Assembly: GCA_030220185.1 (NCBI GenBank)
Contig: JASPKZ010005709.1
Location: 394,001-458,000, forward strand
Direction of reading: 5' to 3'
Origin: Diploptera punctata
Taxonomy: Eukaryota; Arthropoda; Insecta; Blattodea; Blaberidae
Length of the DNA: 64,000 bases
Within the stretch, counting starts at the first letter, position 1. Each line of letters begins with the position of its first letter. The notes beneath the pieces are model-generated. The model was given only the letters and a program-made list of their open reading frames with translations, had not been told where the DNA came from and did not search any database. Of this stretch, positions 4,361-59,745 are shown one piece after another. The position numbers and the translations under genes are program-made.

Positions 4361-4397
4361 CTGAAAAGGGACAAGATATTGTCTGAAACCGCCGGTA
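4361..4397 (+). ncRNA. hammerhead-like core (degenerate) in PLE
   Basis: Core CTGAAAA (consensus CTGANGA), stem II GGACAA/TTGTCT, then GAAACC, loop GCC, GGTA. Flanking TGA/TCA forms a 3-bp stem I. Substitution in the core probably inactivates it. Confidence 0.5.
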
Positions 4398-4659
4398 TCA
4401 AAGAAATTTGAAATTATATGAGGTGAGTCGTTAAAAATATGTTTGCCACTCACTATTAATGATATAACCTCATAATGTTTACTTCCCAATATTAATTTAA
4501 ATATAGAGACTAGCATTTTAATTATAATTTAATTTGTATCAAGTTACTTGCATCAAAACATCACTGGCAGGGCATACAAGCAATCAACATATCATCTATT
4601 AATTAAATAAAAATAAAACATAGTTTTATTTGATTTTCATATTTATTATATAATTCAGT

Positions 4660-4692
4660 GACAGCTGTTTCGGTACACTGTACCTTCTTCAG
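4660..4692 (-). ncRNA. hammerhead ribozyme-like motif (PLE-B, left arm)
   Basis: CTGAAGA, one extra A, stem II GGTAC-AGT-GTACC, GAAAC, then AGCT and GTC cleavage triplet. The stem is intact. Compare 5063-5095, where the outer pair is A-T instead of G-C. Confidence 0.7.
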
Positions 4693-5062
4693 GCATGTCA
4701 ACAAATTATAAATTGTATTCCAACTGACCTAAGCAACAATACAACAATATTTATTTAAATTTTTAAATTTAACAAAGGGGATTCATTCAAATCAAGTTGA
4801 GAATTTAACAGTTTTTTTTTTGAGAGCATATAACAGAAATTTAGAAAATTCAAAATATGCTAACCACCTATTCCAATTTAATCATTGTTTCGATCCAAAT
4901 TTTGAAATTTTATATATTTGTGATAAGGGTAATTTAAAAGTAGTAAAAAAATTCTCAACTTGATTTGAATGAATCCCCTTTGTTAAATTAAAAAATTTAA
5001 ATAAATATTGTTGTATTGTTGCTTAGATCAGTTGGAACACAATTCATAATTTGTTAACATGT

Positions 5063-5095
5063 CTGAAGAAAGTACAGTGTACTGAAACAGCTGTC
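5063..5095 (+). ncRNA. hammerhead ribozyme-like motif (PLE-B, right arm)
   Basis: CTGAAGA, extra A, stem II AGTAC-AGT-GTACT, GAAAC, GTC triplet. The closing base pair of stem II is changed on both strands relative to 4660-4692, a compensatory change. Confidence 0.7.
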
Positions 5096-5566
5096 ACTGA
5101 ATTATATAATAAATATGAAAATCAAATAAAACTACGTTTTATTTTTATTTAATTAATACATATGGATTTTCATCAAGTAAACACCAACTCAATTGATTAA
5201 CATATTATCTTGTGGTGAAAAACAAAATGATTTGGGTGTACCCGCTATTGGATACAACAGCAAGCAAGAGGATGTTTGTTAATGCTGCGATCTTCCTGCC
5301 AGCTGGGAGTAGAAATGTCAATAATAAAGTAAGATCTCTTGTATTTATGTTCAATAATTTATATAATTTCAGATTCAGTATGAGTATAGAAATAAATTTG
5401 AGTTGTTTTGACTCACCTCATATTTCTTGATTTTTATGCAGACCTAGGTTTTGTTACTGACTTTGCGACATTCTCGATGCAACACAACTGCCATCTTGCG
5501 GTTGTCCCACCTGCAAATTGATTTCTGCGCTCTCTGTTGACTGACCAATGAACTTCCAAATCAAAA

Positions 5567-5963
5567 ATTAATAAATGAGTTGGAGAAAATTTTTTAACAT
5601 CTCAGCTTACAAAGTTGCGTGTCTTCACGATACCAGTTTCAAAAGTATAGTAATACTTCCATCTTCAGTCAAATTCCAACTGTTGAAATTTCGCTGTTAA
5701 CATCATCTTTTGAACTGCCATCTGGTGTAGATTTACATGACGAGAATAATTTAATCACCAAGTTCATAAAATCTACACCAGATGGCAGTTCAAAAGATGA
5801 TGTTAATGACGAAATTTCAACAGTTGGAATTTGACTGAAGATGGAAGTAATACTATACTTTTGAAACAGCAACTTTGTGAGGTGAGATGTTAAAGCATTT
5901 TCTCCAACTCATTTAGTAACGTAAATATCTCATAGTGTTTGCCCCAACGTAATTTTAATGAAA
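5567..5963 (+). mobile_element. PLE-A foldback, inner, 13-bp TSD
   Basis: 397 bp bounded by 13-bp direct repeats TTCCAAATCAAAA (5554-5566 and 5964-5976). It consists of two inverted copies of a PLE 3' end. Both arms encode the same C-terminal peptide (LITKFIKSTPDGSSKDDVN) in opposite directions. The right terminus extends about 45 nt beyond the left one. Confidence 0.85.
5631..5668 (-). ncRNA. hammerhead ribozyme-like motif (PLE-A)
   Basis: CTGAAGA, extra T, stem II GGAAGTA/TACTTTT (7 bp with two G-T pairs), loop TTACTA, GAAAC, TG, GTA. The plus-strand partner at 5835 has lost the cleavage triplet. Confidence 0.65.
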
Positions 5964-6299
5964 TTCCAAATCAAAAGTTCATCAGTCAGTCAACAGAGAG
6001 CGCAGAAATCAATTTGCAGGAGGGACAACTGCAAGACGGCAGTGGTGTTACATCGAGAATGTCACAAAGTTAAGGATGAAATGTAGGTCTGCATAAAAAT
6101 CAAGAAATATGAGGTGAGTCAAAACAACTCAAAGTTCTATATATTATAGAAGTATGAGGTATGAAATAATCACGATTAATTTAATTCTTATGAATTTGAA
6201 CCTCATAATGTTAAAAGTTCCCAAATTTAATATATAAACTCAAAGTTAATTAAAATAAACCTCATAGTGTTATTTCCTAGCTACATATATTTAATAGAA

Positions 6300-6729
6300 A
6301 GTATATTATTTACAAAGCACTTGGTACTATGTTAAGGATAGTAAATATTTATTATTTGAGATGGTACAGCATTCCTAAATGAGAACACAAAAACAACATT
6401 TCGATTTATAATTCAGTATAACACACAAACACGATGAAAGCAACAGAGTGACACAAAACATTGCATTTAGTATTAAACTAGTTTCCAGTTGGTAAATTCA
6501 ACATTCTTAAGCAGTGTCTTAACCCCAAGGAGATCTGACAAGGGGATCACTTTAGTTTTACTTATATGTGACTAAAAAGTTTAAGACCGTTTTAAAAGGA
6601 CGTTACAAAGTTTTTTTTTTTTTTTGTAATCTACATCTTACAATTGGGGAGATTTTTATGAAATCTGGTGACTGACACAAGGGGAATAATAATCTGCTTG
6701 ACATTCAGTTGCAAGTGATGTCAATTTTC
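6300..6729. other. unassigned intron, poly-T
   Basis: AT-rich, includes a poly-T run near 6610. No exon or repeat family recognised. Confidence 0.5.
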
Positions 6730-6941
6730 AGATAGATTATATTTGAAGATAAAAATTTTAGCCTAGACCTAGACTCGAAACCAGGACTTTTGGCTTTCCG
6801 GGCCAAATGCTCTACCAACTGAGCTACCAAGGCAAGTTGCGATCTAGATGCAAATTTTTCTCTTCATGTGTTGTAATACCCTCGTGTCAAATGCTATGAA
6901 GCCTTTGCTTCTATCTTTGTAAATGGCGGCTTCTTAGTTAA
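6730..6941 (-). repeat. tRNA-cored element (split by LTR-like insertion)
   Basis: Minus-strand tRNA-like core at about 6761-6833 with flank ATATTTGAAGATAAAAATTT and the family spacer (AAATGGCGGCTTCTTAGTTA), interrupted at a TTAA by the next feature and resuming at 7778. Confidence 0.75.
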
Positions 6942-7773
6942 TGAACCGAAAGTGCGATTTTCGGTTCGCACTGCAGTGCCGTTATCCTCCTTGAACAGAA
7001 AGATTCGTGAACTATGCCAATATCCCTTCTCTATGCATCTACCCCCACTCTCCTTTTTACCTCTCCTGTTGCGCTGTTTGTGCTGCGCATCTCCCCTTCT
7101 ACCTCGGAACGCTCAAATATGCTACGCACATTCAGAACATTATCTTTCGATCGGAACTTTATGTTTAGACTATGTCGTCTGGAGCATGCGAGTGGCGTGG
7201 TTTGAGTTTTGGTCCGGAGGACCGGGGGAAAGCCACCCTGGCTTGGACTATTTGTATGAAGGAAGTTGTGTGAGTGAGGTATGATATATATTTTTGATGT
7301 TAATGATTATTATTTATTTTTTTGTTTAAATTCTAGAATGATCAATATTTATATTTGTTATATTTTTCCTACACTTCAGACGTCTTGTTTATATTAAACA
7401 TCATTTTTATATACATCATGTTTAATGTTCAAATTATTTATGTGCATGCTGCTGTTTGATATATTCCCGTACGTAAACTTACTGCTTTAGGAGATCATAC
7501 AAGCTTCCTTTTTTCCGTCTAGCTTTCATGGTTAATAATAATAATGATACATTCAGTTTAGATCAGAATCATAGATTACTCCAGTGTTTTGAGATCTATT
7601 GTTGATTTATGTTTAAGTGTTTGGAAAAGAAAGGTGAATCAATCTTTGCTTCTTATGGGCCCGGGCAAAGGCTTTTCATTAATAACCTTGGGTGTTATGA
7701 ACTCTATGCTAATATATACAATGGAAACAAAAGACGATACACGGCGGCGCAGAGCGTGGTTATCGCCCGCACA
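6942..7773 (+). mobile_element. solo LTR-like insertion with TTAA duplication
   Basis: 832 bp beginning TGAACCGAAAGTGCG and ending CCCGCACA, i.e. TG...CA termini, flanked by TTAA on both sides (6938-6941, 7774-7777). The host tRNA-cored repeat reads through without it in other copies. A related copy lies at 26120-27029. TG/CA ends with a 4-bp duplication suggest a solo LTR. A piggyBac-type MITE (also TTAA) is the alternative, but the termini are not inverted repeats. Orientation is inferred. Confidence 0.6.
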
Positions 7774-7777
7774 TTAA

Positions 7778-8500
7778 GAAGACATTAATTGGGAATTTAA
7801 CACTACTTTAAAAAGCCAGTAGGGCTTCTATTAATGTTTTTTTTATTACTTTAATACTTCTCACTGAAGGATAAATTATATTTGAAGAGAAAATTCATAG
7901 CATTTGGCACGAGGGAATTACAATGTATATAAGAGAAAAATTTGCATCCAGATCGCAACTCGCCTCGGTAGCTCAGTTGGTAGAGCATTTGGCCTAGAAA
8001 GCCTAAGGTCCCGGGTTTGAGTCTCAGTCTAGGCGAAAAAAATGTTTCTCTTCAAATATAAAAAGTATTGACGATTTTTATTATTAATTTAACACTTCTC
8101 ATAGAAGGATAAATTATATTTGAAGAGAAAGCCAAGGGTCCCGGGTTCGAGTCCTGGTATAGGCGAAAATTTTTCTCTTCAAATATAATTTATCCTTCTA
8201 TGAGAAGTGTTAAATTAATAATAAAAATCGTCAATAGAAGCCCTACTGGCTATAAAGTAGTGTTAAATTTCCAATAAATGTCTTCTTAACTAAGAAGCCG
8301 CCATTTGCAAAGATAGAAGCTATGGTTTCAAGCATTTGGCGCGAGGGAATTACAACGTACATAAGAGAAAAATTTGCATCTAGATCGTAACTCGCCTCGG
8401 TAGCTCAGTTGGTAGAGCACTTGGCCCGGAAAGCCAAGGGTCCCGGGTTCGAGTCCCGGTCTGAGCGTATAATTTTTCTCTTTAAATATAAAAAGTATTG
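7778..8500 (+). repeat. tandem/inverted array of tRNA-cored units
   Basis: Two complete tRNA-like cores (7962-8034 and 8394-8466) and one half core (8129-8165), separated by the family spacer. Units are partly inverted: GAAGGATAAATTATATTTGA at 8104 has its exact inverse near 8200. The cores keep the A box (TAGCTCAGTTGGTAGAGC) and B box (GGTTCGAGTCC). The full core at 8394 shows recognisable D, anticodon and T arms, but has C rather than T before the anticodon-like triplet. Confidence 0.78.
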
Positions 8501-8760: not shown

Positions 8761-8804
8761 AAGTAAAATCTGTTCACCTCACCTCTTAACCTGTTTTCTA
8801 ATTA

Positions 8805-9189: not shown

Positions 9190-9845
9190 AATTTTAGGAA
9201 GTGATATTTTGAGGTTATTTTAATTATATTATTTTTGGTCTGATCATCTTACCTCAATATTAATGTTGATTTGTTCTTGGACATGTTTCAAAACAATTCT
9301 GTTTTATCATCAGCTTGTCCAGACTGGTTTGATTTATGTTGCATTATGTTGCACAACCTGGATGTCGATGTCAGCTCCATCCTGTGGTTGGACAAAGAAC
9401 CTCCAAACAAGTCACGCTCCATCGGTATTTCAAAATTCATAACTCTGTTTTTGTTCTTCTGAATATAGATTTTTTCCCAAATAGTCAGCTCTTTTGTATT
9501 TTCTAACTGTTTTAATAATTTAGTGTCTGAATTTATATTATGTTTTTCAGACCAAACTATTAAAATTATTAAAACAGTTAGAAAATACAAAAGAGCTGAC
9601 TGTTTGGGAAAAATCTATTCAGAAGAACAAAACCAGAGTTATGAATTTTGAAATACCGATGGAGCGTGACTTGTTCGGAGGTTCTTCGGCCAACCACAGG
9701 ATGGAGCTGACATCGACATCCAGGTTGTGCAACATAAATCTAACCAGTCTGGACAAGCTGACAATAAAACAGAATTATTTTGAAACATGTCCAAGAACAA
9801 ATCAACATTAATATTGAGGTAAGATGATCAGACTAAAAATAATAT
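9190..9845. mobile_element. PLE-A foldback, inner
   Basis: Inverted arms starting and ending with the ATTGAGGTAAGATGATCAGA-type terminus. Both arms encode a GIY-YIG-element C-terminal remnant (ELTIWEKIYIQKNK, VMNFEIPMERDLFGG). The palindrome centre is near 9545. Confidence 0.75.
9280..9313 (-). ncRNA. hammerhead ribozyme-like motif (PLE-A)
   Basis: CTGATGA, extra T, perfect 6-bp stem II AAAACA-GAAT-TGTTTT, GAAAC, AT, GTC. All core residues match consensus. Its partner at 9758-9791 has CTGACAA and a weaker stem. Confidence 0.75.
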
Positions 9846-9965
9846 AAAGAAAAAAATTAATGAATTTTGAAATTCCCAGGGAAGTTGATTTGAATCGGAG
9901 GATCATCAGTCAACCAACAGATGGAAGCAGTGCTCCTGGACAACAGAACATCGGTCGTGAAATTA

Positions 9966-10000
9966 CTGATGATGAAACTGCCTAGGTCTTGAAACCGGTC
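9966..10000 (+). ncRNA. hammerhead ribozyme-like motif with 5-bp stem I
   Basis: CTGATGA, extra T, stem II GAAACT/GGTCTT (one A-C mismatch), GAAAC, CG, GTC. AATTA (9961-9965) pairs with TAATT (10001-10005) as stem I. One of the two best examples in the window. Confidence 0.78.
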
Positions 10001-10125
10001 TAATTAGAAGATGACCCTTGACATAACTGGTAAGTTTATAAAATTATGAGGTGAATGTGAACAGAATTTATTTTAAATTATACCTCATAGTGGCATTTCC
10101 TTTAATAGTTCAATTCTATTTTCAT

Positions 10126-11945: not shown

Positions 11946-12262
11946 TTCTCTTCAAATATGATTTATCCATCATTGAGATGTATGAAATTAATAAGAACAT
12001 CGAAAAAAGCCGTACTGGCATTTATAATGTAATGTATAATTCCCAAATATGTCTTCTTAATATAGGAGCCGCCATTTGCAAAAAAATAGAAGCAAAGGCT
12101 TCAAAGCATTTTGTGGGCAGGAATTACAACGTATATAGAGAAAAATTTGTGTTTAGATCGGTACTTGCTCAGGTAGCTCAAATGGTAGAGCACTTAGACT
12201 AGAAAACCAAGGGTCCCGGGTTCAAGTCCCGGTCTGAGCGTATAATTTTTCTCTTCAAATAT
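11946..12262 (+). repeat. tRNA-cored element, uninterrupted copy
   Basis: One unit of the family: TTTTTCTCTTCAAATATGAT, spacer, GCCGCCATTTGC, flank AGAGAAAAATTTG, tRNA-like core 12167-12239, tail TAATTTTTCTCTTCAAATA. It contains the empty site that the DD41D mariner occupies in the first copy. Confidence 0.78.
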
Positions 12263-12454: not shown

Positions 12455-12990
12455 AGATTATAAATGATAAAATCAAATGTTTCCTACCTCTCCTCATATA
12501 AATCTTCTAAGTAGATTGTCATTTCGAGACCATATTGGTCTCATCTTCAGTACAATCTTGGCGACTGATATTATGTCGATTGGAAGAAACACTTCTTCTT
12601 CCCTCTGTTGGTAGATCGATGAACCTCTGGATCAGGTCAGGATTTGTGGGAATTTCAAAGTTCATAAGTTTTTCTTTATTTTTCTGAATGTACAGTATAT
12701 TTTTTATGAACTTTGAAATTCCCACAAATCCTGACCTGATCCACAGGTTCATTGGTCCATCAACAGAGGGAAGAAGAAGTGTTTCTTCCGATCGACATAA
12801 CATCAGTCGCCAAGATTGTACTAAAGATGAGACCATTATGGTCTCGAAATCGCGACCTACTTGGAAGATTTATATGAGGAGAGGTACGAAACATTTGATT
12901 TTATCATAAATTAAACCTCATAGTGATTAATTCCTGTAAGAGTTAATAGAAGAATATAAAACATTACTTATTTTAGGAATTCTCACTATG
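12455..12990. mobile_element. PLE foldback (subfamily with TACCTCTCCTC end)
   Basis: Inverted arms 12455-12690 and 12700-12910 with coding remnant MNFEIPTNPDLI on both strands, then the terminus ACCTCATAGTGATTAATTCC. Left terminus ATGTTTCCTACCTCTCCTCA. Confidence 0.75.
12514..12550 (-). ncRNA. hammerhead ribozyme-like motif
   Basis: CTGAAGA, extra T, perfect 6-bp stem II GAGACC-AATAT-GGTCTC, GAAA, then TGACA and ATC as cleavage triplet. GTA/TAC gives a 3-bp stem I. The partner near 12825 has ACTAAAGA and is degenerate. Confidence 0.65.
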
Positions 12991-13057
12991 AGGTATATTC
13001 ATTAAGGTAGAATATTTTTTATCACTCACCTCATATTGTTCTTCTTATTTGACTATA

Positions 13058-13094
13058 AACTAGTTTCAGAACATAATTTCTGTTCCATCCTCAG
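13058..13094 (-). ncRNA. hammerhead ribozyme-like motif
   Basis: CTGAGGA, extra T, stem II GGAACA-GAAATTA-TGTTCT, GAAAC, TA, GTT. ATA/TAT forms a 3-bp stem I. Confidence 0.7.
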
Positions 13095-13345
13095 TATCGT
13101 CACGACCGTTGTTCTGTCGTCTTGAAGAGCTGTCCTTCTCTCCTTCCATTGGCTGACTGAAAAACCTCGAAACCAGGTCATTCTCACTGGGAATTTCAAA
13201 GTTCATTAATTTCTTCGCGAAAAGAAGAAATTAATGAAATTTGAAATTCCCGGTGAGAATGACCTGGTTTCGAGGTTTTTCAGTCAGCCAATGGGAGGAG
13301 AGAAGGACAGCTCTTCAAGACGACAGAACAACGGTCGTGACGATA

Positions 13346-13382
13346 CTGAGGATGGAACAGAAACTATGTTCCGAAACTAGTT
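13346..13382 (+). ncRNA. hammerhead ribozyme-like motif
   Basis: Partner of 13058-13094: CTGAGGA, T, GGAACA-GAAACTA-TGTTCC (fully paired), GAAAC, TA, GTT, with stem I ATA/TAT. Confidence 0.72.
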
Positions 13383-13697
13383 TATAATTAAATAAGAAGA
13401 ACAATATGAGGTGAGTGATAAAAAAATATTCTACCTTAATATAAAACTTTATTTGAAACTATTGGAGATTATTTAAGAGTTCCAGTTAGTATAAAGTCAT
13501 CCATCCCCCCCACAAATTACAATATATTTAAGTGTATGTGTTTAGTGCGAGTTGTATGAGAGCTGATGAAGGAAGAAGATGAAATGTGGTACCAGCACAA
13601 AGCCTGTACAACAATCTAAATTTGACCAATGATTGTGAGGTACACAACTAAGCTGATTAACAACATAAAGCAAATAGAGAGGTTGAGTCAGACTTAC

Positions 13698-15135: not shown

Positions 15136-15735
15136 AAATTCATCGGAGAACATTTTGTTTAAACAACTCACCTCATAGGATTCATGATTCCATGATACTG
15201 CGGTTTCAAACACAGTTGCGTTCATCCCTAGCCATAACTCCGACTAACGAAATTCTTCGGCCGTCAACTGTTCTATCTTCAATGCTGCCATCTATGGTTG
15301 AATTTATGAACTTCGAAATCAAAGTTATTTCGTTAGGGATATCAAAATTCATTGATCTATCTTTATTTTTCTGAATGTATATTTTCTCCCAAACTGTCAA
15401 TTCCAAAGGCTTCTCTACTTGTTTTAAAAGTTTAGCTTCTCTTCCAATTTTATGATGTTCTAATAAACTATGTGCTGCAATTGCAGATTTTTCAAATGCA
15501 CAATTTTTAATATTTCTGAAATACACTGAAGATGGCGACAATAGAACAGTTGACGGCCGAAGAATTTCGTCAGTTGGAGTTATGGCTGAGGATGAACATA
15601 ACTGTGTTTGAAACCGTGGTATCGGTATCATGGAAGCATGAATCCTATGAGGTGAGTTGTTTAGACAAAATGTTCTCCGATGAATTTGAATGATTATACC
15701 TCATAATATTTACTTCCCAACATTCATTTAATATA
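15136..15735 (+). mobile_element. PLE-A foldback, 600 bp, 13-bp TSD
   Basis: Bounded by ATTACTTGTTTTA (15123-15135 and 15736-15748). The minus-strand arm 15631-15206 encodes a GIY-YIG-element C-terminal remnant (EKPLELTVWEKIYIQKNKDR, MNFDIPNE). The right terminus is GAGGTGAGTTGTTTAGAC...ATACCTCATAATATTTACTT. It lies 160 nt downstream of exon H in the intron. Confidence 0.85.
15586..15621 (+). ncRNA. hammerhead ribozyme-like motif
   Basis: CTGAGGA, T, stem II GAACA-TAACTG-TGTTT, GAAAC, CGTG, GTA. The opposite arm (near 15190-15230) has CTAGGGA and is probably dead. Confidence 0.62.
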
Positions 15736-32879: not shown

Positions 32880-32910
32880 TACACAAGTGATCTTCTTGGT
32901 GATATAAATA

Positions 32911-33700
32911 TTAAAATATATATGTAGTCAATATGCCCATTTCACCAATTAATGTTTTAAAATGGTCAACAAGTTTCTACAGCCAAGCTGTCATTCTCAA
33001 GACCAGATATTGACTGAAGACAGAATTGATAATAAGTAAAGAAACAAATTCAGTTAAAAACAAACTACGTCACATGACGCAATCATTCATAAGTGAACAA
33101 TAAAACATACTAAAACTAATCCTCTTTTGTTTCAATTAGAGAAAAGAGGGCGCTGTACGGAATAGGGCCCTTGTCTTTATTCATTATTTTATCCTTATTT
33201 TTATAAATTTCCAAACTTTCAAGGACGTTAAGGAATTTGAAATCCATGACCGAACGAACCAGCCTAAGGTTACTTTTATTGATAGCATGACCGTACTCAG
33301 AAATATGTTTCTGAGTACGGTCATGCTATCAATAAAAGTAACCTTAGGCTGGTTCGTTCGGTCATGGATTTCAAATTCCTTAACGTCCTTGAAAGTTTGG
33401 AAATTTATAAAAATAAGGATAAAATAATGAATAAAGACAAGGGCCCTATTCCGTACAGCGCCCTCTTTTCTCTAATTGAAACAAAAGAGGATTAGTTTTA
33501 GTATGTTTTATTGTTCACTTATGAATGATTGCGTCATGTGACGTAGTTTGTTTTTAACTGAATTTGTTTCTTTACTTATTATCAATTCTGTCTTCAGTCA
33601 ATATCTGGTCTTGAGAATGACAGCTTGGCTGTAGAAACTTGTTGACCATTTTAAAACATTAATTGGTGAAATGGGCATATTGACTACATATATATTTTAA
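32911..33700. mobile_element. PLE-D palindrome, two 393-bp arms
   Basis: 32911-33303 and 33308-33700 are inverted copies around TATG, with no difference that I can see. Each arm encodes a PLE C-terminus (EYGHAINKSNLRLVRSVMDF, KFLNVLESLEIYKNKDK, MNKDKGPIPYSALFSLIE) and carries a ribozyme-like hairpin ACAGC-TTG-GCTGT, GAAAC with a non-consensus TTGAGAA core. Confidence 0.85.
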
Positions 33701-34045
33701 CATATTCTGCTCGTAATTAAATTGTTATATAAAGGATATCTATTGACACCATGGAAAAAGTATAAACATATGATTAGATAGGCCCATATATAATTTTTTG
33801 TCATAAATAAATAAGAAATGGAAGTTCCTAATTATTGCTATCATCTTACCTTGTATTCAATCTTATTTCCCGTAAAATATAATGTTCCCTAAGAACAATG
33901 TTTCTATCAACAACAATTCCTTATACAATTCAGTCATATGGCGGGTAAAAGTAGCACCATCGTTCCTCTAATAGACAGGGGATTAATGCCTTATGCAAGT
34001 TTGTTTACAGTACAACTGGAATTTAGCTTGGAATTGGTATAGTTA
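33701..34045. other. unassigned intron
   Basis: No feature recognised. Confidence 0.5.
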
Positions 34046-35217: not shown

Positions 35218-35465
35218 TAGTTTGCTAGAAACATCATAAAATTAGAAGAGATGCAAAACTTTTGAAACAATTGGATAAACCGTTAGAATTAACAGTCTGG
35301 GAGAAGATATTCATTCAGAAGAATAAATATCGATTGATGAACTTCGATATTCCGGTGGAGAAAAATCTGATTTTGAAATTTATAAATCCAACCAAAGATG
35401 GCAGCACAAGAGGTGATGACCTTAGAAAAATCAACAGCCAAAGAATTTAACAGTTGGAGTCATGA

Positions 35466-35502
35466 CTGAAGAGGGACGATAAGTTGTCTGAAACCATCGG
35501 TC
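35466..35502 (+). ncRNA. hammerhead ribozyme-like motif with 3-bp stem III
   Basis: CTGAAGA, extra G, stem II GGACGA-TAAG-TTGTCT, GAAACC-ATC-GGTC. TGA/TCA forms stem I. It has the most complete set of helices in the window. Confidence 0.78.
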
Positions 35503-35668
35503 TCAAATCAAGAAAGCTTGAAATTTTATGAGGTGAGTTGTTAAAAATATGTTCTCCACTCACTATTAATGATATAACCTCATAATGTTTACTTCCCAAC
35601 ATTAATTTAAATATATTGGTATAGTTAGTGCAATGCAACAAGGATATTCACAAACATATACTAGCTGT

Positions 35669-36401: not shown

Positions 36402-36452
36402 CTGCCACAAAAACATTCACTCACATTAAATTTCTTCACATTAAAAATTGAT

Positions 36453-36880
36453 AATAATTAAATGAATCGTGATTTTTTCTTACCTCATACATCTATGTTT
36501 CTTTAAACACAGCACTGCAGTATCGGCGACACTTCGTCGTCATCGTCAGCTGTTTTCACGACTGTCAATTTTTTCTCCTTTTTGCCGGTAATTATCTAGG
36601 CTGCCATCATGAATCTCGATTCATCCAAAATAACACCAGATGGCAGTTTGAAGAGGAATTCCTTCAAAAGAACACCAGATGGCAGCCTAGATAATTACCG
36701 GCAAAAAGGAGAAAAAATTGACAGTCGTGAAAACAGCTGACGATGACGACAAAGTGTCGCCGATACTGCAGTGCTGTGTTTAAAGAAACATAGATGTATG
36801 AGGTAAGAAAAAATCACGATTCATTTAATTATTATTAATTGAACCTCATAATGTTAAAAATTCCCAAATTTAATATATAA
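36453..36880. mobile_element. PLE foldback, 13-bp TSD (one mismatch)
   Basis: Flanks ATTAAAAATTGAT (36440-36452) and ATTAAAAATTGGT (36881-36893). Inverted arms share AACACCAGATGGCAG and GCCTAGATAATTACCGGCAA. The core is CTGACGA with stem II CGAC/GTCG, but GATA replaces GAAA. Confidence 0.78.
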
Positions 36881-36904
36881 ATTAAAAATTGGTATTCAGA
36901 ATTA

Positions 36905-37248: not shown

Positions 37249-37827
37249 TTAAATTAACATTGGGAAGTAAACATTATGAGGTTATATCATTAATAGTGAG
37301 TGTAGAATATATTATTAACGACTCACCTCATATGATTTCAAATTTCTTTGATACCGGCAGTTTCAGACAATATCTTGTCCCTCTTCAGTGATGTCTTCCA
37401 CTGATGAAATTCTGTGGTTGTTGGTTTCCCTAAGAACATCACCTCTTGTGCTGCCATCTTTTGTTATAATTATAAACTTTGTAATTACATATTTATCCAC
37501 CGGAATATTGAAATTCATAGATCGATATTTATTCTTCTGAATGAATATAATTTCCCAAATTGTCAATTCCAACGGTTTATCTAATTGTTTCAAAAGTTTT
37601 GCCTCTTTTTCAATTTTATAATGTTGTAGCAAACTATGTGCTGCAATTGCTGATTTTTCAATTTCACAATTTTTAATATTTCTAAAATGTTCTTTAGTGC
37701 ATGTTTCCAAATTCCTTTTTGTTTTTCCTATGTATACTTTGTTACAATCATTACAATTTATTTGGTATCAAAGAAATTTGAAATCATATGAGGTGAGTCG
37801 TTAAAAATATATTCTACACTCACTATT
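37249..37827 (-). mobile_element. PLE-A foldback, 579 bp, 13-bp TSD
   Basis: Bounded by AGAGCTACAATAT (37236-37248, 37828-37840). The minus-strand frame 37710-37363 encodes TKEHFRNIKNCEIEKSAIAA, KPLELTIWEIIFIQKNKYRS and a C-terminal tail, the largest uninterrupted PLE-A remnant. Confidence 0.87.
37352..37388 (-). ncRNA. hammerhead ribozyme-like motif
   Basis: CTGAAGA, extra G, stem II GGACAA-GATA-TTGTCT, GAAAC, TGCCG, GTA. Confidence 0.7.
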
Positions 37828-40022: not shown

Positions 40023-40291
40023 GACTCCACAATGGAAATTTCCGAAATTGTATTGTATTCTCAGAATGTTGGTTGATACCGTTAAATGCATCAGGGGAGG
40101 GGGTTGTGAGTGAAGGTTACTCTATTGTGCTAGTTTCTACGTGCAGTTCACAGTAGCACATTTAAAAATAAAGAATTTTTTCATAAGAATACAAAATATA
40201 GTATTTTAAAAAAATACGGTAAAGAGAGTCATGATCCCTATTAGGTTCGTCTTCCGGGCATATAGGCCGTGGTCCAGTCGTTCTTCTACTC

Positions 40292-40326
40292 GACGTTTCG
40301 TCTACTGCTGCAGTAGACATCTTCAG
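40292..40326 (-). ncRNA. hammerhead ribozyme-like motif (PLE-C)
   Basis: CTGAAGA, extra T, perfect stem II GTCTAC-TGCAGCA-GTAGAC, GAAAC directly followed by GTC (minimal stem III). CTC/GAG is stem I. Confidence 0.8.
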
Positions 40327-40472
40327 GAGATACTGCATGCTCTCTGTGAACTCCTCAACAGTCGGCTGCAGACTGGCTGGTCGTTGAAAACTCCCTCCCT
40401 ATTTATAGTTTCCAACGACCAGCCAGTCTGCAGCCGACTATTGAGGAGTTCACAGAGAGCACGCAGTATCTC

Positions 40473-40507
40473 CTGAAGATGTCTACCGCAGCAGTAGACG
40501 AAACGTC
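40473..40507 (+). ncRNA. hammerhead ribozyme-like motif (PLE-C)
   Basis: Partner of the above: CTGAAGA, T, GTCTAC-CGCAGCA-GTAGAC, GAAAC, GTC, with stem I CTC/GAG. Confidence 0.8.
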
Positions 40508-40674
40508 GAGTAGAAGAACGACTGGACCACGGCCTATATGCCCGGAAGACGAACCTAATAGGGATCAAGACGCCGGCCGTGAAAGCCTACAGTTATACAA
40601 AAGAGAGTCATGCCCGGATAATCTGCAAACTGGATAATATGCGCATGGATAATCGGGAGTTTGCTGTACGCTGT

Positions 40675-41940: not shown

Positions 41941-42499
41941 AAACTATATTTATTTTTTCCTCCCTTTTTACATATTTTTAAGAGTAGCTTATCTGTGGAT
42001 GACAACACATGATGCCATCTTCAGAAAACTATATATAGTTTAGGTTTTCTTTTCTTTAGTGTTTTTACTTTTGATGTGATCACCCTGATGATGGCTTGTT
42101 CAAGGGCAAAACACATATCCGGATCAATTTGAATATTTTTTGTCTTTTTTTATCACTTTTACCGTATCTGTGACTTTAATTGGACAGATCTGCATCCCAG
42201 ATTGATTGTTGGCTCTTTTAGCAGAATTACTACTAAGGTAATTATTTTTTTTAGGATTTCACATTATGAGGTATATTTATTTAAGTAAATTTTTATCACT
42301 CACTTCATATTCTTCTTCTTTTTTTTAAACTAGTTTCAAAACTTTACACATCAGTTCCATCTCCAGTAATTTTGTGACTATTGTTTTGTCGTTCAGAGGG
42401 AGCGAGAGGCAGCTCTTCAAGACGACAGAACAACGGTCACAAAATTAATATTTGAGTTTGTATTCTTTAACATTTTTACCTCATATGTTTATTCTATCG

Positions 42500-42533
42500 G
42501 ACGATCGTTTCAAAGCTATTGCTCCATCTTCAG
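42500..42533 (-). ncRNA. hammerhead ribozyme-like motif
   Basis: CTGAAGA, T, stem II GGAGC-AATA-GCTTT, GAAA, stem III ACG-AT-CGT, C. Confidence 0.68.
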
Positions 42534-42584
42534 CTTGTTCACAAAATTACTGCAGATGGAACTGAAGTGTAAAGTTTCGAAACT

Positions 42585-43667: not shown

Positions 43668-44165
43668 ATAATTGTAGGCTTTCACGGCCGGCGTCTTGAT
43701 CCATATTTGGTTCGTCTTCCGGGCTTATAGGCTGTGGTCTGGTTGTCTTCTTACTCGACGTTTCGTCGGTCCGCGCAGAAACCCCCCCCACCACCCGGGG
43801 TTTAGCTATAAAAAGAGAGACAGTTTCCAACCACCAGCCAGTTTGCAGCCGACTGTTGAGGAGTTCACAGAGAGCACGCAGTATCTCCTGATGAGGTCTA
43901 CCACAGCAGTAGACGAAACATCGAGTAAGAAGACAAACAGACCACGGCCTATAAGCCCGGAAGACGAACCAAATATGGATCGTTTATTTATTTTGTTTTC
44001 AGTCTTCACTTTTTCTATGTGACACATTGCATTCCAGATAATTACAATTGCATTTGTATTCATGTAGACTTTCACGGCCGGAGTTGCTATGATGATCTTG
44101 AAGATTTTTGGGCTGTAGGCCGTGGTCGTGAGGCTTGTAGTTCCCGAAAATCTTCAGGATCATCA
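43668..44165. mobile_element. PLE-C foldback and fragment
   Basis: Inverted GGTTCGTCTTCCGGGCTTAT and its partner near 43960. A second short palindrome lies at 44065-44165 (GATGATCTTGAAGATTTTTG). The hammerhead at 43888-43922 has CTGATGA, G, GTCTAC/GTAGAC, GAAAC, ATC. Confidence 0.7.
43888..43922 (+). ncRNA. hammerhead ribozyme-like motif (PLE-C, ATC triplet)
   Basis: As 40473-40507 but with CTGATGA and GAAACATC. Stem II is intact. Confidence 0.6.
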
Positions 44166-45470: not shown

Positions 45471-46794
45471 CGAGGGCGGATCGGAAAGTAACGCACAATA
45501 ATTTTTTTCTGCCTTGGTATTGCAGCTAGAATGTTGAAATTTCACAGAGATATAGTTTGAAGTTTTCACTACAGATGGTATTTTTTTCTCAGGTGCACCT
45601 CTTGCGAGAGAAGCTTGAACTATGCAACAAAGATGGTGCGCATGCTACAGTCGTCCACCTGTGAGGAACAGAGAAGTGTTGTTCGATTTTTGTGGGCCAA
45701 AGGGCATAAACCCAGTGAAATTCACAGGGACATGCGTGGCGTGTATGGGGATGATTGTATGGACCGTAGCAATGTCTCCAGGTGGTGCACATTCTTCCAA
45801 GAGGGACGCGTGAACCTTAGTGATTCGCCACGCTCCGGCCGGCCGACAACAGCAGCAATCCCGCAGAATGTCAGAGGCATTGAGGCGGCAATTCTGAACA
45901 ACTGGCATGTGCAACTGCAAGCCTTATCGCAGAAGTTCAACATTTCTTATGGTGCGGTTTACGATATTGTTCATGAAAATTTGAAATTCCGTAAAGTTAG
46001 TGCTCGCTGGGTGCCTAAGAACCTGACAGACGACCACAAGGGCCAGCGAATGATGGCAAGCTTGGACCACTTAACGCGGTACACCGCACAAGGACATGAC
46101 TTTCTGGAAGGAATCGTCACAGGTGATGAGTCGTGGGCGTACCACTACACGCCCGAAACAAAGCAGGCATCAATGGAGTGGAAACATGCTGGTTCCCCAG
46201 TAAAGAAAAAATTCAAAGTGACTCAATCTGCCAGGAAAATGCTTGTGACAGTGTTCTGGGATATGCATGGTGTTTTATTGGTGGACTTTGCTGAACACGG
46301 GACCACTGTGAATGCTGCGGCCTACATTAAAACTTTGGTGAAGTTGCGTCGTGCCATTCGTGACAAACGTCACAACATTAACGTTAAACTTCTTCATGAC
46401 AATGCTCGCCCCCATGTTGCTGCTGTCGTTCGTCAGGAAATCGCCGAATTTGGTTGGGAGGTGCTCCAGCATCCACCATACAGTCCAGATCTTGCACCAT
46501 CAGACTTTCATCTGTTTGGTCCCATGAAGAAATTCCTGGCCGGCAAACGCTTTGAGACAGATGTGGAAATGAAATCAGCAGTGCGCAGATGGCTACACTC
46601 CAACCAAACGGACTTCTACGAACAGGGCATATTGAAACTGGTAACACGATGGGAAAAATGTGTTGAGAAAGTTGGTGACTATGTCGAAAAGTAGGTAAAA
46701 GATGTAAGTTCATTTGTGATTTTTTTTCCTTTTTTTTTTACTATTAAACTTTTTAAAAAAAAAATATTGTGCGTTACTTTCCGATCCGCCCTCG
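45471..46794 (+). mobile_element. intact mariner element
   Basis: 1,324 bp with inverted ends CGAGGGCGGATCGGAAAGTA and TACTTTCCGATCCGCCCTCG, flanked by TA (45469-45470, 46795-46796). Carries a full open transposase frame. Confidence 0.95.
45615..46694 (+). CDS. mariner transposase, DD34D, full length
   Basis: 359 codons without interruption. It would cut and paste the element at TA sites. N-terminal paired helix-turn-helix region: RSVVRFLWAKGHKPSEIHRD, CTFFQEGRVNLSDSPRSGRP (linker with GRP), FNISYGAVYDIVHENLKFRK. Then VSARWVPKNLTDD, the WVPHxL-like motif. Catalytic residues: Asp in VTGDESWAYHY, Asp in LLHDNARPH and Asp in YSPDLAPSDFHLFG, with 34 residues between the second and third, i.e. 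DD34D. Length is close to the usual 345-350. ATG at 45633 is an alternative start. All key residues are present, so the copy is potentially active and young. The TIR and GRP-type features mark it as a true mariner; the subfamily is not assigned. Confidence 0.95.
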   Translation: MNYATKMVRMLQSSTCEEQRSVVRFLWAKGHKPSEIHRDMRGVYGDDCMDRSNVSRWCTFFQEGRVNLSDSPRSGRPTTAAIPQNVRGIEAAILNNWHVQLQALSQKFNISYGAVYDIVHENLKFRKVSARWVPKNLTDDHKGQRMMASLDHLTRYTAQGHDFLEGIVTGDESWAYHYTPETKQASMEWKHAGSPVKKKFKVTQSARKMLVTVFWDMHGVLLVDFAEHGTTVNAAAYIKTLVKLRRAIRDKRHNINVKLLHDNARPHVAAVVRQEIAEFGWEVLQHPPYSPDLAPSDFHLFGPMKKFLAGKRFETDVEMKSAVRRWLHSNQTDFYEQGILKLVTRWEKCVEKVGDYVEK

Positions 46795-50745: not shown

Positions 50746-51100
50746 AATAAATTTGGGAATTTTAACATTATGAGGTTTTATTAATAAGAATCAAATGAAT
50801 CATGAATTCTTCTTACCTCATACTTCTATGTTTTTTTTAAACACAGCACCACAGTATCGGAGAACAATCTTCCCCATCATCAGCCGTTTTCACAACTGTC
50901 AATTTTTTTCTTTTGCCGGTAATTATCCAAACTGTCATATGGTGTTCTTTTGAAGGAATCATTTTCTAAACTGCCATCTGTTGTATTTTTGAAAAACTTT
51001 GTAATCAAGCTTGGTTCGTCCAGAATCTCAAAGTTCATGGTTCAAGTATGGTTTTTTTTAATATAAATAATTTCTCAAACTGTTAAATCCAAAGGTTTAG
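50746..51100 (-). mobile_element. PL E arm (GATA-type core)
   Basis: PLE terminus ACATTATGAGGTTTTATTAA, TTCTTACCTCATACTTCTAT. A hammerhead-like motif on the minus strand (about 50858-50883) has CTGATGA, T, GGGGAA/TTCTCC, but GATAC in place of GAAAC. Coding remnant CCATCTGTTG. Confidence 0.65.
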
Positions 51101-55051: not shown

Positions 55052-55084
55052 AACATGCTTCGATTATATCATAATCATCGTCAG
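55052..55084 (-). ncRNA. hammerhead ribozyme-like motif
   Basis: CTGACGA, T, perfect stem II GATTAT-GAT-ATAATC, GAAG (consensus GAAA), AT, GTT. Partner at 56311-56343 has GAAAC but CTGACAA, so the two arms carry complementary defects. Confidence 0.62.
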
Positions 55085-55379: not shown

Positions 55380-55995
55380 ATATAATATGAAAATTTCCAC
55401 ATCAAAATCCAAAACAATGGCAATGTGTGGAAAAAAACATACAACGGGTGAAAATTGAGATTGATGGAAAAATTATAGAACAAGTGTCAGATTTCTCTTA
55501 CTTAGGAAGTGTATTTGCAGAGTATAAGAGTGACATTGATTCAAAATTACAAAAATATAATAAAATGAATGGGGTAATACGAAGACATTTTGGTAAACAG
55601 ATGAGGACAGAGACAAAACTAAGATTACATAACGTCACATCAAAAGCTGCTCTAAAATACGGAAGTGAAATTTGGATTTTAAATAAAAGAAACTCTCATA
55701 AACTTCAAGTAAGCCAAATGCGCTTCTTACGATCATTGTTAGGAGTTAATAGACTGGATCACCAAAGGAACACTACTATCAGAGGAAAACTTGGAGTAGC
55801 AAGTTTAAATGAAGATATCCAAAGATACCAACAAGAATGGAAAAATCATCTGAGAAGAATGGCAAGAAATAGACTTCCAAAATTGGCATTCCAATATACC
55901 CCAACTGGACATAGGGACCAAGGAAGACCAAAACATCGGTGGAAAGATCAAGACCATCTTCGCTAGGTTTACCGTACAGGCCACATGGCCTAAAA
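55380..55995 (+). mobile_element. RTE-like LINE tail
   Basis: 55427-55966, 179 open codons: KIIEQVSDFSYLGSVFAEYK, ALKYGSEIWILNKRNSHKLQ, QMRFLRSLLGVNRLDHQRNT and LPKLAFQYTPTGHRDQGRPK. Confidence 0.82.
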
Positions 55996-56654
55996 CGAAT
56001 TTGTTCATGATGATGATGATGTGCTCTTTGGTTCTAATTTTTAGGTTTCTTTTTGTTTTTCCTATATATATCTTTTCACAATCCATATATTCAATTTAAT
56101 ATATTCCTGATTTTTTATTTTTTATCATTTTTTTCATTTTTGTTGGTTTTTATTAGTTTATTATTAATCAGAAGAACAAAAACAGAGTTATGAATTTTGA
56201 AATACCGACTGAGTATAACCTTGTTTGGAGGTTCTTTGGCCAACCACAGGATGGAGCTGACATCGACATCCAGGGTGTACAACATAAATCTAACCAGTCT
56301 GGGCAAGATGCTGACAATGATTATGATATAATCGAAACATGTTCAAGAACAAATCAACATTAATATTGAGGTAAGATGAACAGACTAAAAATAATTTAAT
56401 TAAATAACCTCAAAATATCACTTCCTAGAATAAAATATTAATATGAATAATTACTTGAGATAAATATATATGTTGATTTTTTCCAAAAAATAATGTGAAA
56501 AATGCCTTAAAATGAAGTGAGAAGTTGAGCTCAAAGTAACCAAAAATCAGCATATTTGCAATGTAAAATATGTACCAGTCATTGCTCAGACATTTTAGCC
56601 ACTGATCATTAAAGCCCGTTAACAAACAGGTGAATGTTAAACTAATGTGCTGTT

Positions 56655-57095
56655 TGAAATTCATCGGACAACATTTTTTGACAACTCACCTCATAAATTT
56701 TGTGTTTTTCACGAAACTGCAGTTTCAAACATAATCACGTCCATCTTCAGCCTTAACTCCGACTGATGAAATTCTTTGGCCGTCAACTCTTCTATTGTCA
56801 CCATCATCAGCACTGCCATCTATGGTTGAATTGATGAATTTCGAAATAAAATTTTGTTCATTAGGATTTTGAAATTTATAAATTCAATCATAGATGGTGA
56901 CTATAGAAGAGTTTACGGCCGAATAATGTCATCAGTCGAAGTTATGGCTGAGGTGGACATGATTATGTTTGAAACTGCAGTTTTGTGAAAAACATGAAAC
57001 TTATGAGGTGAGATGTCAAAATATGTTCTCCGATGAATTTAAATGATTATACCTTATAATGTTTACTTCCCAACATTAATTTAATGTAATTTGGT
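56655..57095. mobile_element. PLE-A foldback
   Basis: Left terminus GACAACTCACCTCATAAATT, right ACTTATGAGGTGAGATGTCA and ATACCTTATAATGTTTACTT. Both arms keep the ATAGATGG coding remnant. Confidence 0.75.
56715..56750 (-). ncRNA. hammerhead ribozyme-like motif
   Basis: CTGAAGA, T, stem II GGACGT-GATT-ATGTTT (G-T rich), GAAAC, TGCA, GTT. The opposite arm has CTGAGGT. Confidence 0.6.
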
Positions 57096-57254
57096 GTACT
57101 AACTCACCCATTTTCTCACTCTAACTTGCTCAAACTAAAACTAACTTTCTAATCTAATACTAACTTGCTGATTTACTAACTTGCACACTAATGCAGGTAG
57201 ACTCTTGGGATAGAATCCCCTTATATATGAGCAAATATGTTGGATTCATGAATG

Positions 57255-58185
57255 AATTAGTCTTTTTTTTTTCTTACCTCATAGTTTATGTTTTCTTAAA
57301 CACGGGAACCGCTGTTTTCAAGAGGAACATCCCTTCCATTTTCAGCCGACATTATGACTACCGGATTTTCATTGGAATCTCCATCTATAACGTTGCATCT
57401 GGTGTTCATTTGATGAACTTCGAAATCAGGTCCCATTCATCAGGAATTTCGGAATTCATGGATCTAAATTTGTTCTTCTGAATATATATATCTTCTCCCA
57501 AACTGTCAATTCTAAATGTTTTTCCAAATTTTTTAGAAGTTTGGCCTCTTTTTAAATTTTATGATTCTCCAACAAATTTTTAAAAAATTTCAAGAAATTT
57601 ATTACATTGGCATCGATAAATAGATTTAGCCTTGGTAATCTATTAATAACCAATAAAAAATTGAACACCCCAGGTAATAAAAAAATCTGGAATTTATCAA
57701 ATTAGTTGTAGAGATTGCAATAAAGTATATAGAAAAAAACAAAAAGGATATTTGCACAAAAGAACACTTTAGAAATATTAAAAATGGTGAAATTGAAAAA
57801 TCAGCTTTTGCAGAACACAGTTTGTTGGAGAGTCATAAAATTGAAAAAGAGAAAAAACTTCTAAAACACTTGGAAAAACTTTTAGAATTGACAGTTTGGG
57901 AGAAGATATATATTCAGAAGAATAAATTTAGATCCATGAATTTCGAAATTCCCAATGAACAGGACCTGATCTGAAAGATCATCAAATCAACACCAGATGG
58001 CAATGTTAGAGATGGAGATTCCAATGAAAATCCGGTACTCAATAATATCGGTTAAAAATGGGATGGATGTTCCTCTTGAAAACATAAACTATTAGGTAAG
58101 ATATAAAAAGTGACTCATTCATTCAAGAATTAAGAACTTCATAATGTTATTTCCCATATTTAACTATAAATAAATATGTTGGAAT
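57255..58185. mobile_element. PLE-A foldback with GIY-YIG remnant
   Basis: Left terminus TTCTTACCTCATAGTTTATG. The middle plus-strand remnant at 57690-57960 reads SGIYQIS and CRDCNKVY, then EKLLELTVWEKIYIQKNKFR and MNFEIPNEQDLI. Degenerate core CTGAAAATG. Confidence 0.72.
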
Positions 58186-58424
58186 GGTTCTAGCAGGATT
58201 CTAAAACACATGCTAAACAAACACACTAATGCATTAAACAATAATTGATAGGATGTAATACTATCAGTTGTGATATTGTCAAGATATTTATATCTCACCT
58301 CTTTATATTAATCATCATCATTTACTCTGTGGATTAAGCTTTATCAGGCTTATTCTGGTCTCAATTTTTAACCCTTAACTTAACAATTAATTAATCAATT
58401 GATTTAGCATTTACTTGATGAAAA

Positions 58425-58512
58425 TTCATTTTTATGATGTTTTTATTATTAATTTAACATTTCTCAATGAAAGATAAATTATATTTGAAGAGAAAAATTT
58501 TTGCCTAGACAT
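58425..58512. repeat. tRNA-cored element, end fragment
   Basis: ATAAATTATATTTGAAGAGA and TTTTGCCTAGAC, then lost. Confidence 0.6.
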
Positions 58513-58707
58513 TTTTATGTTAACACTCTCCACACTCAACCCATGGTACCTGTTTTCTGATGGTGGACTGTTTGTTTTTTAACACTTTTGTGATTTTTTT
58601 AAGCTACGTAGAAAAATAACACAGAACAGCATATCAGTTATCTATAATAAATAAAATTTGTATTTTTTAATGGTGTTACTAGTTTTTAGGATAGCCATCA
58701 CATCATT

Positions 58708-59077
58708 GTCCACCGCTGTGGTCTCGAGGTAGCTTGCTGCCTTGTCACGCAGCGGGCCCGGGTTCGACCCCCAGTCGGGGCAGTTTTTCTGGGTGACGTT
58801 TTTATCGGGGTTTTTCCTCACCTGTAAGACAAATGTCAGGAAAACTTTAAGGCCCAAACGGTCCCCGAAATCATATGGCCATCATCATCATCATCAACAT
58901 CCTTATCATTATCATTATCATTATCATCTCATCTCATAATTATCATCCTTCACCGGTGTGGAAAGCAACGGGAAGCTACCACACCTACAATTCCCTAGTA
59001 AAGCTGCAAGCATAGCATGAAAATGCTATGATTGCAATGAAGGACCTGCCTTCGGGCAGAATTACTATGGATGGATT
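58708..59077 (+). mobile_element. SINE family S1, 8-bp TSD
   Basis: ACATCATT at 58700-58707 and 59078-59085. The head has CTTGTCACGCAGC and GGGTTCGACCCCC. Expanded (CAT)n/(ATT)n in the body. Confidence 0.85.
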
Positions 59078-59085
59078 ACATCATT

Positions 59086-59560
59086 TTTTACAGAATTAAA
59101 AAAAAATGCATGTTTTTTGCTTACAAGAAAAAAAAAAAGGATTCTTCTGATCATTTTTCATTTTTTTTACTCATATCACTTGCAGAATCTGGTGATTCAT
59201 AATCATTGTCATCATCGGTATAATCATTTTAGGAACCAGATGAACCCAAAAAAATAATAGAGACTTCAGCAAGGACACGCTGTGAGTTTGATCCAGCCAT
59301 CTTGCAACTTTAACAACAACAGATGATGTAGCCTCAATCATAAAATAAAAATTAGTCGTGTAGAAATCAATATATATGAAAAGAACACACTCTACCGGGA
59401 AGAAAAATAACTAAATTTTCAGCAGGAATAGACGAAGAACATATTGGATACGAGCGGTTTCATTACTTTGCATAGCAAATGCCAGACTGTACAAGATGTG
59501 GGCTTTGTTCAGACAGCCATTTTTTACGGAACGTAATAGATACGTGCGTCGTGTTGAAAG
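59086..59560. other. unassigned intron
   Basis: No feature recognised. Confidence 0.5.
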
Positions 59561-59562
59561 AG

Positions 59563-59745
59563 TTAATTAAATAAAAATAAAACTTAAAGTTTTATATGAA
59601 TTTCATATTTATTAAAATACAAATTCATCATAAAATTCGTCTGAAGAAGGTACAAAGTACTGAAACAGCTGTTACAAATTTGCGTATTAATAAATATGAA
59701 AAGCATATAAAACTTTAAGTTTTATTTTTATTTAATTACCATAGC
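59563..59745. mobile_element. PLE-B minimal foldback
   Basis: Inverted AATTAAATAAAAATAAAACT ends and a single ribozyme-like motif at the centre. Confidence 0.78.
59641..59673 (+). ncRNA. hammerhead ribozyme-like motif (PLE-B)
   Basis: CTGAAGA, extra A, stem II GGTAC-AAA-GTACT (outer G-T), GAAAC, AGCT, GTT. Third member of the covarying set with 4660-4692 and 5063-5095. Confidence 0.7.

Follow-up and report, generated by a model that had tools for sequence, protein, structure and literature searches.

Minimal, dimeric hammerhead ribozymes in Penelope-like elements (PLEs) are already published, and one of the two primary papers is reportedly that of Lunse, Weinberg and Breaker in 2017. Later accounts describe a missing or diminished helix III, invoke dimers, note a palindrome in stem III, and give thousands of copies in many animal genomes (PMC7761336, PMC6466107, PMC7229834, PMC6155905), and a 2020 review called the role of the hammerhead in PLEs a mystery (PMC7761336). 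For PAc (Poseidon, Anolis carolinensis), it is reported that the open reading frame (ORF) begins where stem II does, C3 and G8 lying ahead of the start codon, that the protein cuts and extends both strands and starts internally at two sites, and that insertion in vitro is independent of hammerhead cleavage (PMC11167929). Here we analyzed a window of 64 kb from Diploptera punctata (the whole 64,000 nucleotides of contig JASPKZ010005709.1 between positions 394,001 and 458,000). Its repeated motifs are minimal type I hammerheads of PLEs, of the described kind and of predicted activity, and an earlier reading of the window from its letters alone (the sequence-only reading) was correct in naming PLE hammerheads with a very short stem III as the known precedent. 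We consider it very probable that these predicted ribozymes lie in foldbacks that are each a single insertion primed on both target strands, made from an uncut template, with the two complementary DNAs (cDNAs) joined head to head.

Hammerhead motifs in the window and the genome

The strict descriptor, made of CTGANGA, zero to two inserted bases, a stem II of at least 5 bp, and GAAAC, matched 17 sites of the window, whereas 10 first-order Markov shuffles gave no match, and the 17 sites carry the CUGANGA ... GAAA core of hammerheads. Six mutated-core controls gave 0, 0, 0, 0, 0, and 1 matches, and four altered-GAAAC-box controls gave 1 (GATAC), 0, 0, and 0. In 200 kb of another contig of the same genome, called C1 (5 kb of it N), the strict search found 11 sites, the six mutated cores all gave 0, and the altered boxes gave 5 for GATAC, a separate subfamily, and 0 for the others. 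The scan of the window with one mismatch permitted returned 26 sites, and our own covariance model, built from 17 sites selected for pairing (13 from the window), returned 28 matches at E ≤ 0.01, with one (4282-4324) apparently spurious. The window-wide family of at least 18 sites claimed by the sequence-only reading is thereby confirmed. That reading had also looked to Rfam covariance models, and there it found no support: the Rfam hammerhead models gave no match in the window, whether at the gathering score or with the limit relaxed to E ≤ 10. The probable reason is that a self-complementary segment takes the place of the stem III hairpin and that stem II is preceded by an inserted base. Several weak Rfam microRNA matches fall on the palindromes (e.g., 13156-13284 and 5646-5855).

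The motifs of the window are as follows.

4658-4696, minus strand: PLE-B hammerhead motif; outer stem II pair G-C, stem III ACAGCTGT
5059-5097, plus strand: PLE-B hammerhead motif; outer stem II pair A-U, stem III ACAGCTGT
5627-5672, minus strand: hammerhead motif, left arm; stem II GGAAGT
5831-5876, plus strand: hammerhead motif, right arm; stem III region without palindrome
9276-9317, minus strand: hammerhead motif; stem II AAAACA/TGTTTT, stem III ACATGT, predicted cut after GUC
9962-10004, plus strand: hammerhead motif; stem III ACCGGT, stem I AATTA/TAATT
12512-12554, minus strand: hammerhead motif; stem II GAGACC/GGTCTC, GAAAU
12817-12859, plus strand: decayed copy of the 12512-12554 motif in the opposite arm
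13054-13098, minus strand: hammerhead motif of the 13 kb foldback; stem III ACTAGT, predicted cut after GUU
13342-13386, plus strand: hammerhead motif of the 13 kb foldback; stem III ACTAGT, predicted cut after GUU
15582-15623, plus strand: hammerhead motif; core ATG opens 33 codons
22541-22582, plus strand: hammerhead motif; stem II GGGGCT/AGCTCT, stem III ACATGT, fold junction immediately upstream
35462-35503, plus strand: hammerhead motif; PLE subfamily A, with G as the extra base
37351-37392, minus strand: hammerhead motif where the GIY-YIG frame ends; PLE subfamily A
40286-40330, minus strand: hammerhead motif, left arm of the 40 kb foldback; stem II GTCTAC/GTAGAC, stem III ACGT, predicted cut after GUC, ATG at A9-U-G
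40469-40513, plus strand: hammerhead motif, right arm of the 40 kb foldback; 52-codon open frame from the core ATG (40473), its last dozen or so codons in the flank
42498-42537, minus strand: hammerhead motif; stem III ACGATCGT, predicted cut after GUC
43884-43928, plus strand: hammerhead motif of the GTCTAC subfamily; stem III and ATG mutated
50845-50887, minus strand: GATAC-subfamily motif; A14 to U
56713-56754, minus strand: hammerhead motif; stem III ACTGCAGT, predicted cut after GUU
59637-59675, plus strand: PLE-B hammerhead motif; outer stem II pair G-U

Position 7 is the only free position in the hammerhead core, and it varies in the 17 strict sites (A in 11, G in 3, T in 2, C in 1). 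Exactly one base is inserted between A9 and stem II in all of them, as the sequence-only reading had noted; the near-invariance that it ascribed to this base extends to its presence and not to its identity (T in 11, A in 3, G in 3). To count copies in the whole genome (3.12 Gb), patterns that demand no stem pairing were used, with reversed patterns as controls: 150,796 matches had T as the extra base (control 2,961, or 2 percent) and 64,149 had another base (control 7,493, or 12 percent), which leaves ~204,000 above control, ~72 percent of them with T. Some 200,000 pattern matches in one genome are material for studying what the hammerhead does in PLEs.

Stem II keeps its pairing across subfamilies, but it starts after the one inserted base and not right after the core. 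In our stem II alignment, whose members were selected for pairing, 98.0 percent of the cells were paired and 41 cells had changed on both sides. An unbiased set came from 100 listed T-type genome matches, all on contig C1 and chosen with no demand for pairing. Among its 74 distinct motifs, 62 had at least 4 of 5 stem II pairs with a one-base insertion, compared to 3 with none and 18 with two. The 54 distinct pairs of arms had on average 4.26 of 5 positions paired, against 2.74 when arms were exchanged (maximum of 2000 exchanges: 3.35). Hence, the stem II covariation between subfamilies that had been read from the sequence holds in a set chosen without regard to it, and the series of outer pairs described for PLE-B (G-C, A-T, G-T) is seen at 4692, 5063, and 59641.

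For stems I and III, the 56 covariance-model matches at E ≤ 0.01 were taken, and after exclusion of 4282-4324 and of one match without GAAA or GATA, 54 were analyzed; the 19 of 75 matches with E between 0.01 and 1 were set aside. A segment of 4-8 nt starting at A15.1 is perfectly self-complementary in 32 of the 54 (23 of 45 distinct), with the palindromes ACGT, ACATGT, ACTAGT, ACCGGT, ACAGCTGT, ACTGCAGT, ACGATCGT, ATCGCGAT, ACCGCGGT, ACATATGT, and one ATAT. Offsets of +3 to +8 gave 4-11 of 54 and offsets of −4 to −2 gave 0-4, while the offsets −1, +1, and +2 gave 14, 31, and 16, as palindromes nest. A stem III of at least two pairs closed by a loop is not what these sites have, since there is usually no space for a hairpin loop. 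The palindromic stem III can form only between two RNAs, and two RNAs can pair there because most of the analyzed copies have such a short self-complementary segment.

An NUH cleavage triplet follows in 46 of the 54 (GUA 16, GUU 16, GUC 11, AUC 2, AUA 1), in a search that admitted only H, and a usable site is absent in the other 8. Support independent of that restriction comes from the base directly after the palindrome, which is G in 0 of 32. At 38 distinct sites, the three bases after NUH were compared with the three before the core, and these first three pairs of stem I were formed at a mean of 2.29 of 3, against 1.51 in shuffles (maximum of 5000: 1.84), with lower values at every slide.

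The GATAC subfamily has the hammerhead-like layout with A14 changed to U, and eight copies were seen. These lie in the window at 50845-50887 (minus strand) and in the foldback at 36451-36880, and in C1 at 61379, 63191, 63565, 72474, and 77495. They keep stem II, and an exact stem III palindrome is found in four of the eight, two of which are the arms of one insertion; three of these four have G at position 17, as do five of the eight in all, which goes against an NUH triplet there. That stem II and the palindrome persist in such copies hints at a use other than cutting.

The element and the ends of its foldbacks

Several observations support the placement of these motifs in the pseudo-long terminal repeats (pseudo-LTRs) of a GIY-YIG PLE. 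One open frame of the window leads directly to the element:

37366-37767, minus strand: open frame matching GIY-YIG (E 0.00028; 21.6 bits, Pfam cut-off 22.6), running into a hammerhead motif

The search of the genome with this frame gave 169,252 first-look candidates, and the best 150 of them, which were scored, all matched. At the locus L049, a frame of 773 amino acids contains both RVT_1 (E 2.1e-9) and GIY-YIG (E 2.9e-6), and its 3′ end overlaps a hammerhead. A reverse transcriptase (RT) and a GIY-YIG domain in one ORF are what is expected of a PLE, and many of the listed homologues carry both; of the 120 listed, those with a name are proteins from whitefly, lacewing, springtail, and mosquito and are 34-41 percent identical. 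The pseudo-LTRs, head-to-head inverted copies, tail, and short target duplications of PLEs are found as well. The ORF at 3410-4066 (minus strand) was considered as a PLE and rejected, as it matches LINE-1 ORF2 and is a reverse transcriptase fragment of the long interspersed nuclear element type.

Three foldbacks of the window, with end coordinates derived by hand, illustrate the arrangement.

12963-13437: foldback PLE insertion of the GGAACA subfamily (I9); left end long, right end short; AATATAAAAC at 12953-12962 and 13438-13447
36451-36880: foldback PLE insertion of the GATAC subfamily (I19); left end short, right end long; ATTAAAAATTG at 36440-36450 and 36881-36891
40234-40599: foldback PLE insertion of the GTCTAC subfamily (I20); arms outward, short end on the left and a 34-nt tail at the right end
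40221-40233: left target-site duplication AAAGAGAGTCATG of the 40 kb foldback
40600-40612: right target-site duplication AAAGAGAGTCATG of the 40 kb foldback

The claim that both arms of a palindrome often carry the motif was borne out for the insertions I7, I9, I12, I19, and I20. Neighbors less than 1 kb apart mostly point outward: the 100 listed non-T sites gave 13 outward, 0 inward, and 6 same-strand pairs, and the 42 T-type sites among those listed gave 8, 2, and 2. In the window there were 6 outward, 3 inward, and 3 same-strand neighbors, and in C1 3, 1, and 3. GIY-YIG matches less than 10 kb apart, among the best 150 of the 169,252 candidates, gave 9 outward, 0 inward, and 1 same-strand.

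The 3′ ends were tallied in 28 copies of subfamily A at the loci L029-L049, which are the best-scoring loci and no random sample. Sixteen stopped at a short end, 10 at a long end ~45 nt further, one elsewhere, and one was cut by the limit of its locus. All 28 extend past the predicted cut, which argues that cleavage does not set the 3′ end. As the ends lie beyond the predicted cut, they indicate that the 3′ hammerhead of the integrated template had not been cut.

Twenty head-to-head pairs were then tested for target duplications; the L037 pair, whose right end lies outside its locus, was excluded, and adjacent sites of differing subfamilies (e.g., 42498/42546 and 9276/9962) were not among the pairs. 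Direct duplications of 10-13 bp flank 12 of the 20 (null 0-1 of 30 shuffles), spanning several subfamilies and including the foldbacks at 13, 36, and 40 kb. In all 12, one arm has the short end and the other is longer by 28-46 nt, in a search that would detect equal ends at the same setting. With a chance of mixing of ~0.47 per pair, taken from the subfamily A tally, 12 of 12 has a probability of ~1.3e-4 by hand calculation. Three further pairs with 7-8 bp repeats also have one short and one long end, with weak support (null 2, 2, and 5 of 30). The mixed ends fit priming on both strands of one break.

At the other side, the arms of the subfamily A foldbacks are truncated independently. Five of six foldbacks had arms of 1112/191, 185/1110, 290/391, 623/683, and 891/896 nt, and the sixth (L043) had one of 481 nt and one broken by an insertion. 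The arms overlap by 1-3 nt at five of the six junctions and are 3 nt apart in L037.

Origin of the foldbacks and role of the ribozyme

Judged by their ends, the foldbacks appear to be single insertions, and the simplest account of their formation is as follows. The endonuclease of the element would cut the two strands of the target with a stagger of a few bases, and each strand would prime reverse transcription at a template site ~45-110 nt 3′ of the predicted ribozyme cut. The short site would serve one strand and the long (tail) site the other. Head-to-head joining of the two cDNAs, each truncated at its own 5′ point, would follow, so that each arm would carry an outward-pointing hammerhead from a template that was not cleaved there. 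Cleavage as a dimer or with the help of an element protein, known from other PLEs, may occur here as well.

Some observations weigh against this account. Our covariance model was trained on sites selected for pairing, stem I is weak in some subfamilies (1 bp in AAAACA), and the GATAC subfamily breaks an essential core base. Inward neighbors exist (three in the window, one in C1, and two in the T-type list); by eye, those in the window and C1 are different elements adjoining. Eight of the 20 pairs have no clear 10-bp duplication. Three of these are the pairs with 7-8 bp repeats; among the other five, 5668/5835 has an 8-bp repeat at two equal ends ~300 nt out (null 0/30), perhaps belonging to a larger palindrome, 12550/12821 has a 9-bp repeat inconsistent with the visible tail side (null 0/30), and 94693/94773 in C1 has no tail on either side. 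For PAc, it is reported that RNA-seq reads neither start nor end at the predicted cut and that there is no strand difference in the start site in vitro (PMC11167929).

It is conceivable, though unlikely, that the palindromic stem III is chiefly a dimer site, through which two PLE RNAs would pair and a paired RT complex would prime at the short and the long site, one per strand, with foldbacks as its regular product. This would be favored by the preservation of the palindrome with differing letters in many subfamilies, including four of the eight copies of the GATAC subfamily, which should be unable to cleave, and by the presence of one end of each kind in 12 of 12 foldbacks with a duplication of at least 10 bp.

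That ribozyme cleavage makes the ends of the integrated RNA, as in retrozymes, so that insertions would end at cut sites, is distinctly unlikely. In the AAAACA subfamily, 171 breakpoints lie at the cut and 48 one base further, at an equal pass probability, and a GATAC-family copy (C1 65723) begins exactly at the cut. However, 91 breakpoints lie four bases further, at a higher pass probability. Of the 171 breakpoints 100 were listed; the context is AAA in 33 of these, a single array accounts for 11, and a strict count scales to 44. Many of the 127 matches with more context are fold junctions, A-runs, local deletions, and two arrays. On the 3′ side, the ends lie well beyond the predicted cut, both in the 28 subfamily A copies and in the tested head-to-head pairs.

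We find it quite improbable that the foldbacks arose by snap-back self-priming, in which the first cDNA folds back and copies its own arm. This was proposed by Arkhipova et al. 2013, there on an antisense template (PMC3846280), and it would produce head-to-head palindromes, some with small spacers, as well as near-equal arms, which two of the six subfamily A foldbacks have (891/896 and 623/683 nt). A copied arm would, however, be expected to share the 3′ end of the first arm and to copy into the flank, whereas the 12 duplication-bearing pairs have direct repeats of 10-13 bp in their flanks and two arms with differing end sites, and some 5′ truncations are very unequal (1112/191 and 185/1110 nt). 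The direct duplications and unequal ends thus disfavor self-priming.

The core could also be conserved merely as the start codon and early reading frame of the PLE, with no ribozyme at all. Indeed, A9-U-G reads ATG in 65 of the 100 listed T-type copies, and the ORF start of PAc, at the beginning of stem II, fits this same core ATG (PMC11167929). This is very unlikely as a full explanation: in 17 of the 65 ATG copies the frame is stopped within the motif itself, AAG, AGG, or AAA takes the place of the ATG in subfamilies A and B, and a coding constraint would not explain GAAA, stem pairing, or the palindrome. An inherited start codon accounts for part of the prevalence of T as the extra base, and only for part, because of the early stops in several subfamilies; the inserted base may also have a structural role. 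Finally, although the genome is rich in repeats and palindromes, an origin of the motifs by chance or as palindrome artefacts of an AT-rich genome is refuted by the shuffles (0), the near-zero mutated-core and altered-box controls, and the low reversed-pattern counts.

Two kinds of sequence near the predicted ribozymes were recorded separately. The first is a weakly supported stem downstream of the ribozyme and beside the start of reverse transcription, at 15644-15727 and 40526-40603 (both plus strand) and in relatives, with CACGGCC/GGCCGTG as the stem in the GTCTAC subfamily:

15644-15727, plus strand: tail region downstream of the 15586 motif, with the stem TATGAGGT...ACCTCATA

The GTGAGT that overlaps this stem also resembles a 5′ splice site. 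The box TATGAGGTGAGT was rejected as a 5′ splice site, as no spliced frame was demonstrable, and its pairing with ACCTCATA of the tail found little support: single copies seldom beat shuffles, and the covariation is weak, with one compensated pair in two sequences, segments selected by motif, and better covariation at a slide of +3. The second is a pair of arrays of ~212-bp units in both orientations, C3765:203975-206273 and C7196:703813-706247, in both of which similarity to the AAAACA subfamily begins 0-1 nt from the predicted cut, as far as the listed letters show.

Other repeats of the window and comparison with known systems

The window has 15 tRNA matches above the Rfam threshold, at 35-108 (minus strand), 1692-1765, 7962-8035, 8394-8467, 12167-12240, and ten more places. 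They probably form a tRNA-derived family of short interspersed nuclear elements, because several of them are repeated together with their flanks. An inverted repeat of 396 bp, 100 percent complementary and with a 4-nt spacer, lies at 32908-33703, and a mariner-like transposase open frame (Transposase_1, HTH_48, DDE_3) at 45561-46691 (plus strand).

No treatment of the unequal ends of Penelope foldbacks was found beyond PMC3846280 and PMC11167929 in general literature searches, none on that phrase alone and with subscription papers mostly outside their coverage. The retrozymes of animals resemble the present copies in having type I hammerheads in dispersed repeats, but they are expressed as RNAs of ~170-400 nt from small tandem repeats whose hammerheads are mostly canonical, whereas here the hammerheads are minimal and the copies are pieces of a PLE (PMC7229834). 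Small tandem repeats bounded by canonical hammerheads are not what we found, as the ends lie beyond the motif.

The likeness to published PLE hammerheads, as these are known from reviews, comprises the type I core in PLE pseudo-LTRs, the reduced helix III, and the stem III palindrome. The copies analyzed here differ from them in the one extra base of all 17 strict sites and in the subfamily that carries GATAC.

Penelope of Adineta vaga shares the head-to-head inverted pseudo-LTRs, there with target duplications of 8-10 bp and an optional 31-bp tail on one inverted pseudo-LTR (PMC3846280). According to the same source, its copy number is very low and self-priming was the explanation given; here, many copies favor two primings. 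Two-strand priming offers an account of the long-puzzling inverted Penelope repeats that can be tested against self-priming.

In PAc, the motif lies at the ORF start and the start codon where stem II begins; two internal RT starts give a tail, and both target strands are cut and extended, all as proposed or observed here (PMC11167929). In vitro, PAc showed no strand difference, whereas the two ends of the foldbacks use different starts in 12 of 12 clear cases. These paired short and long ends would be the trace left in a genome by the two-strand priming that PAc shows in vitro.

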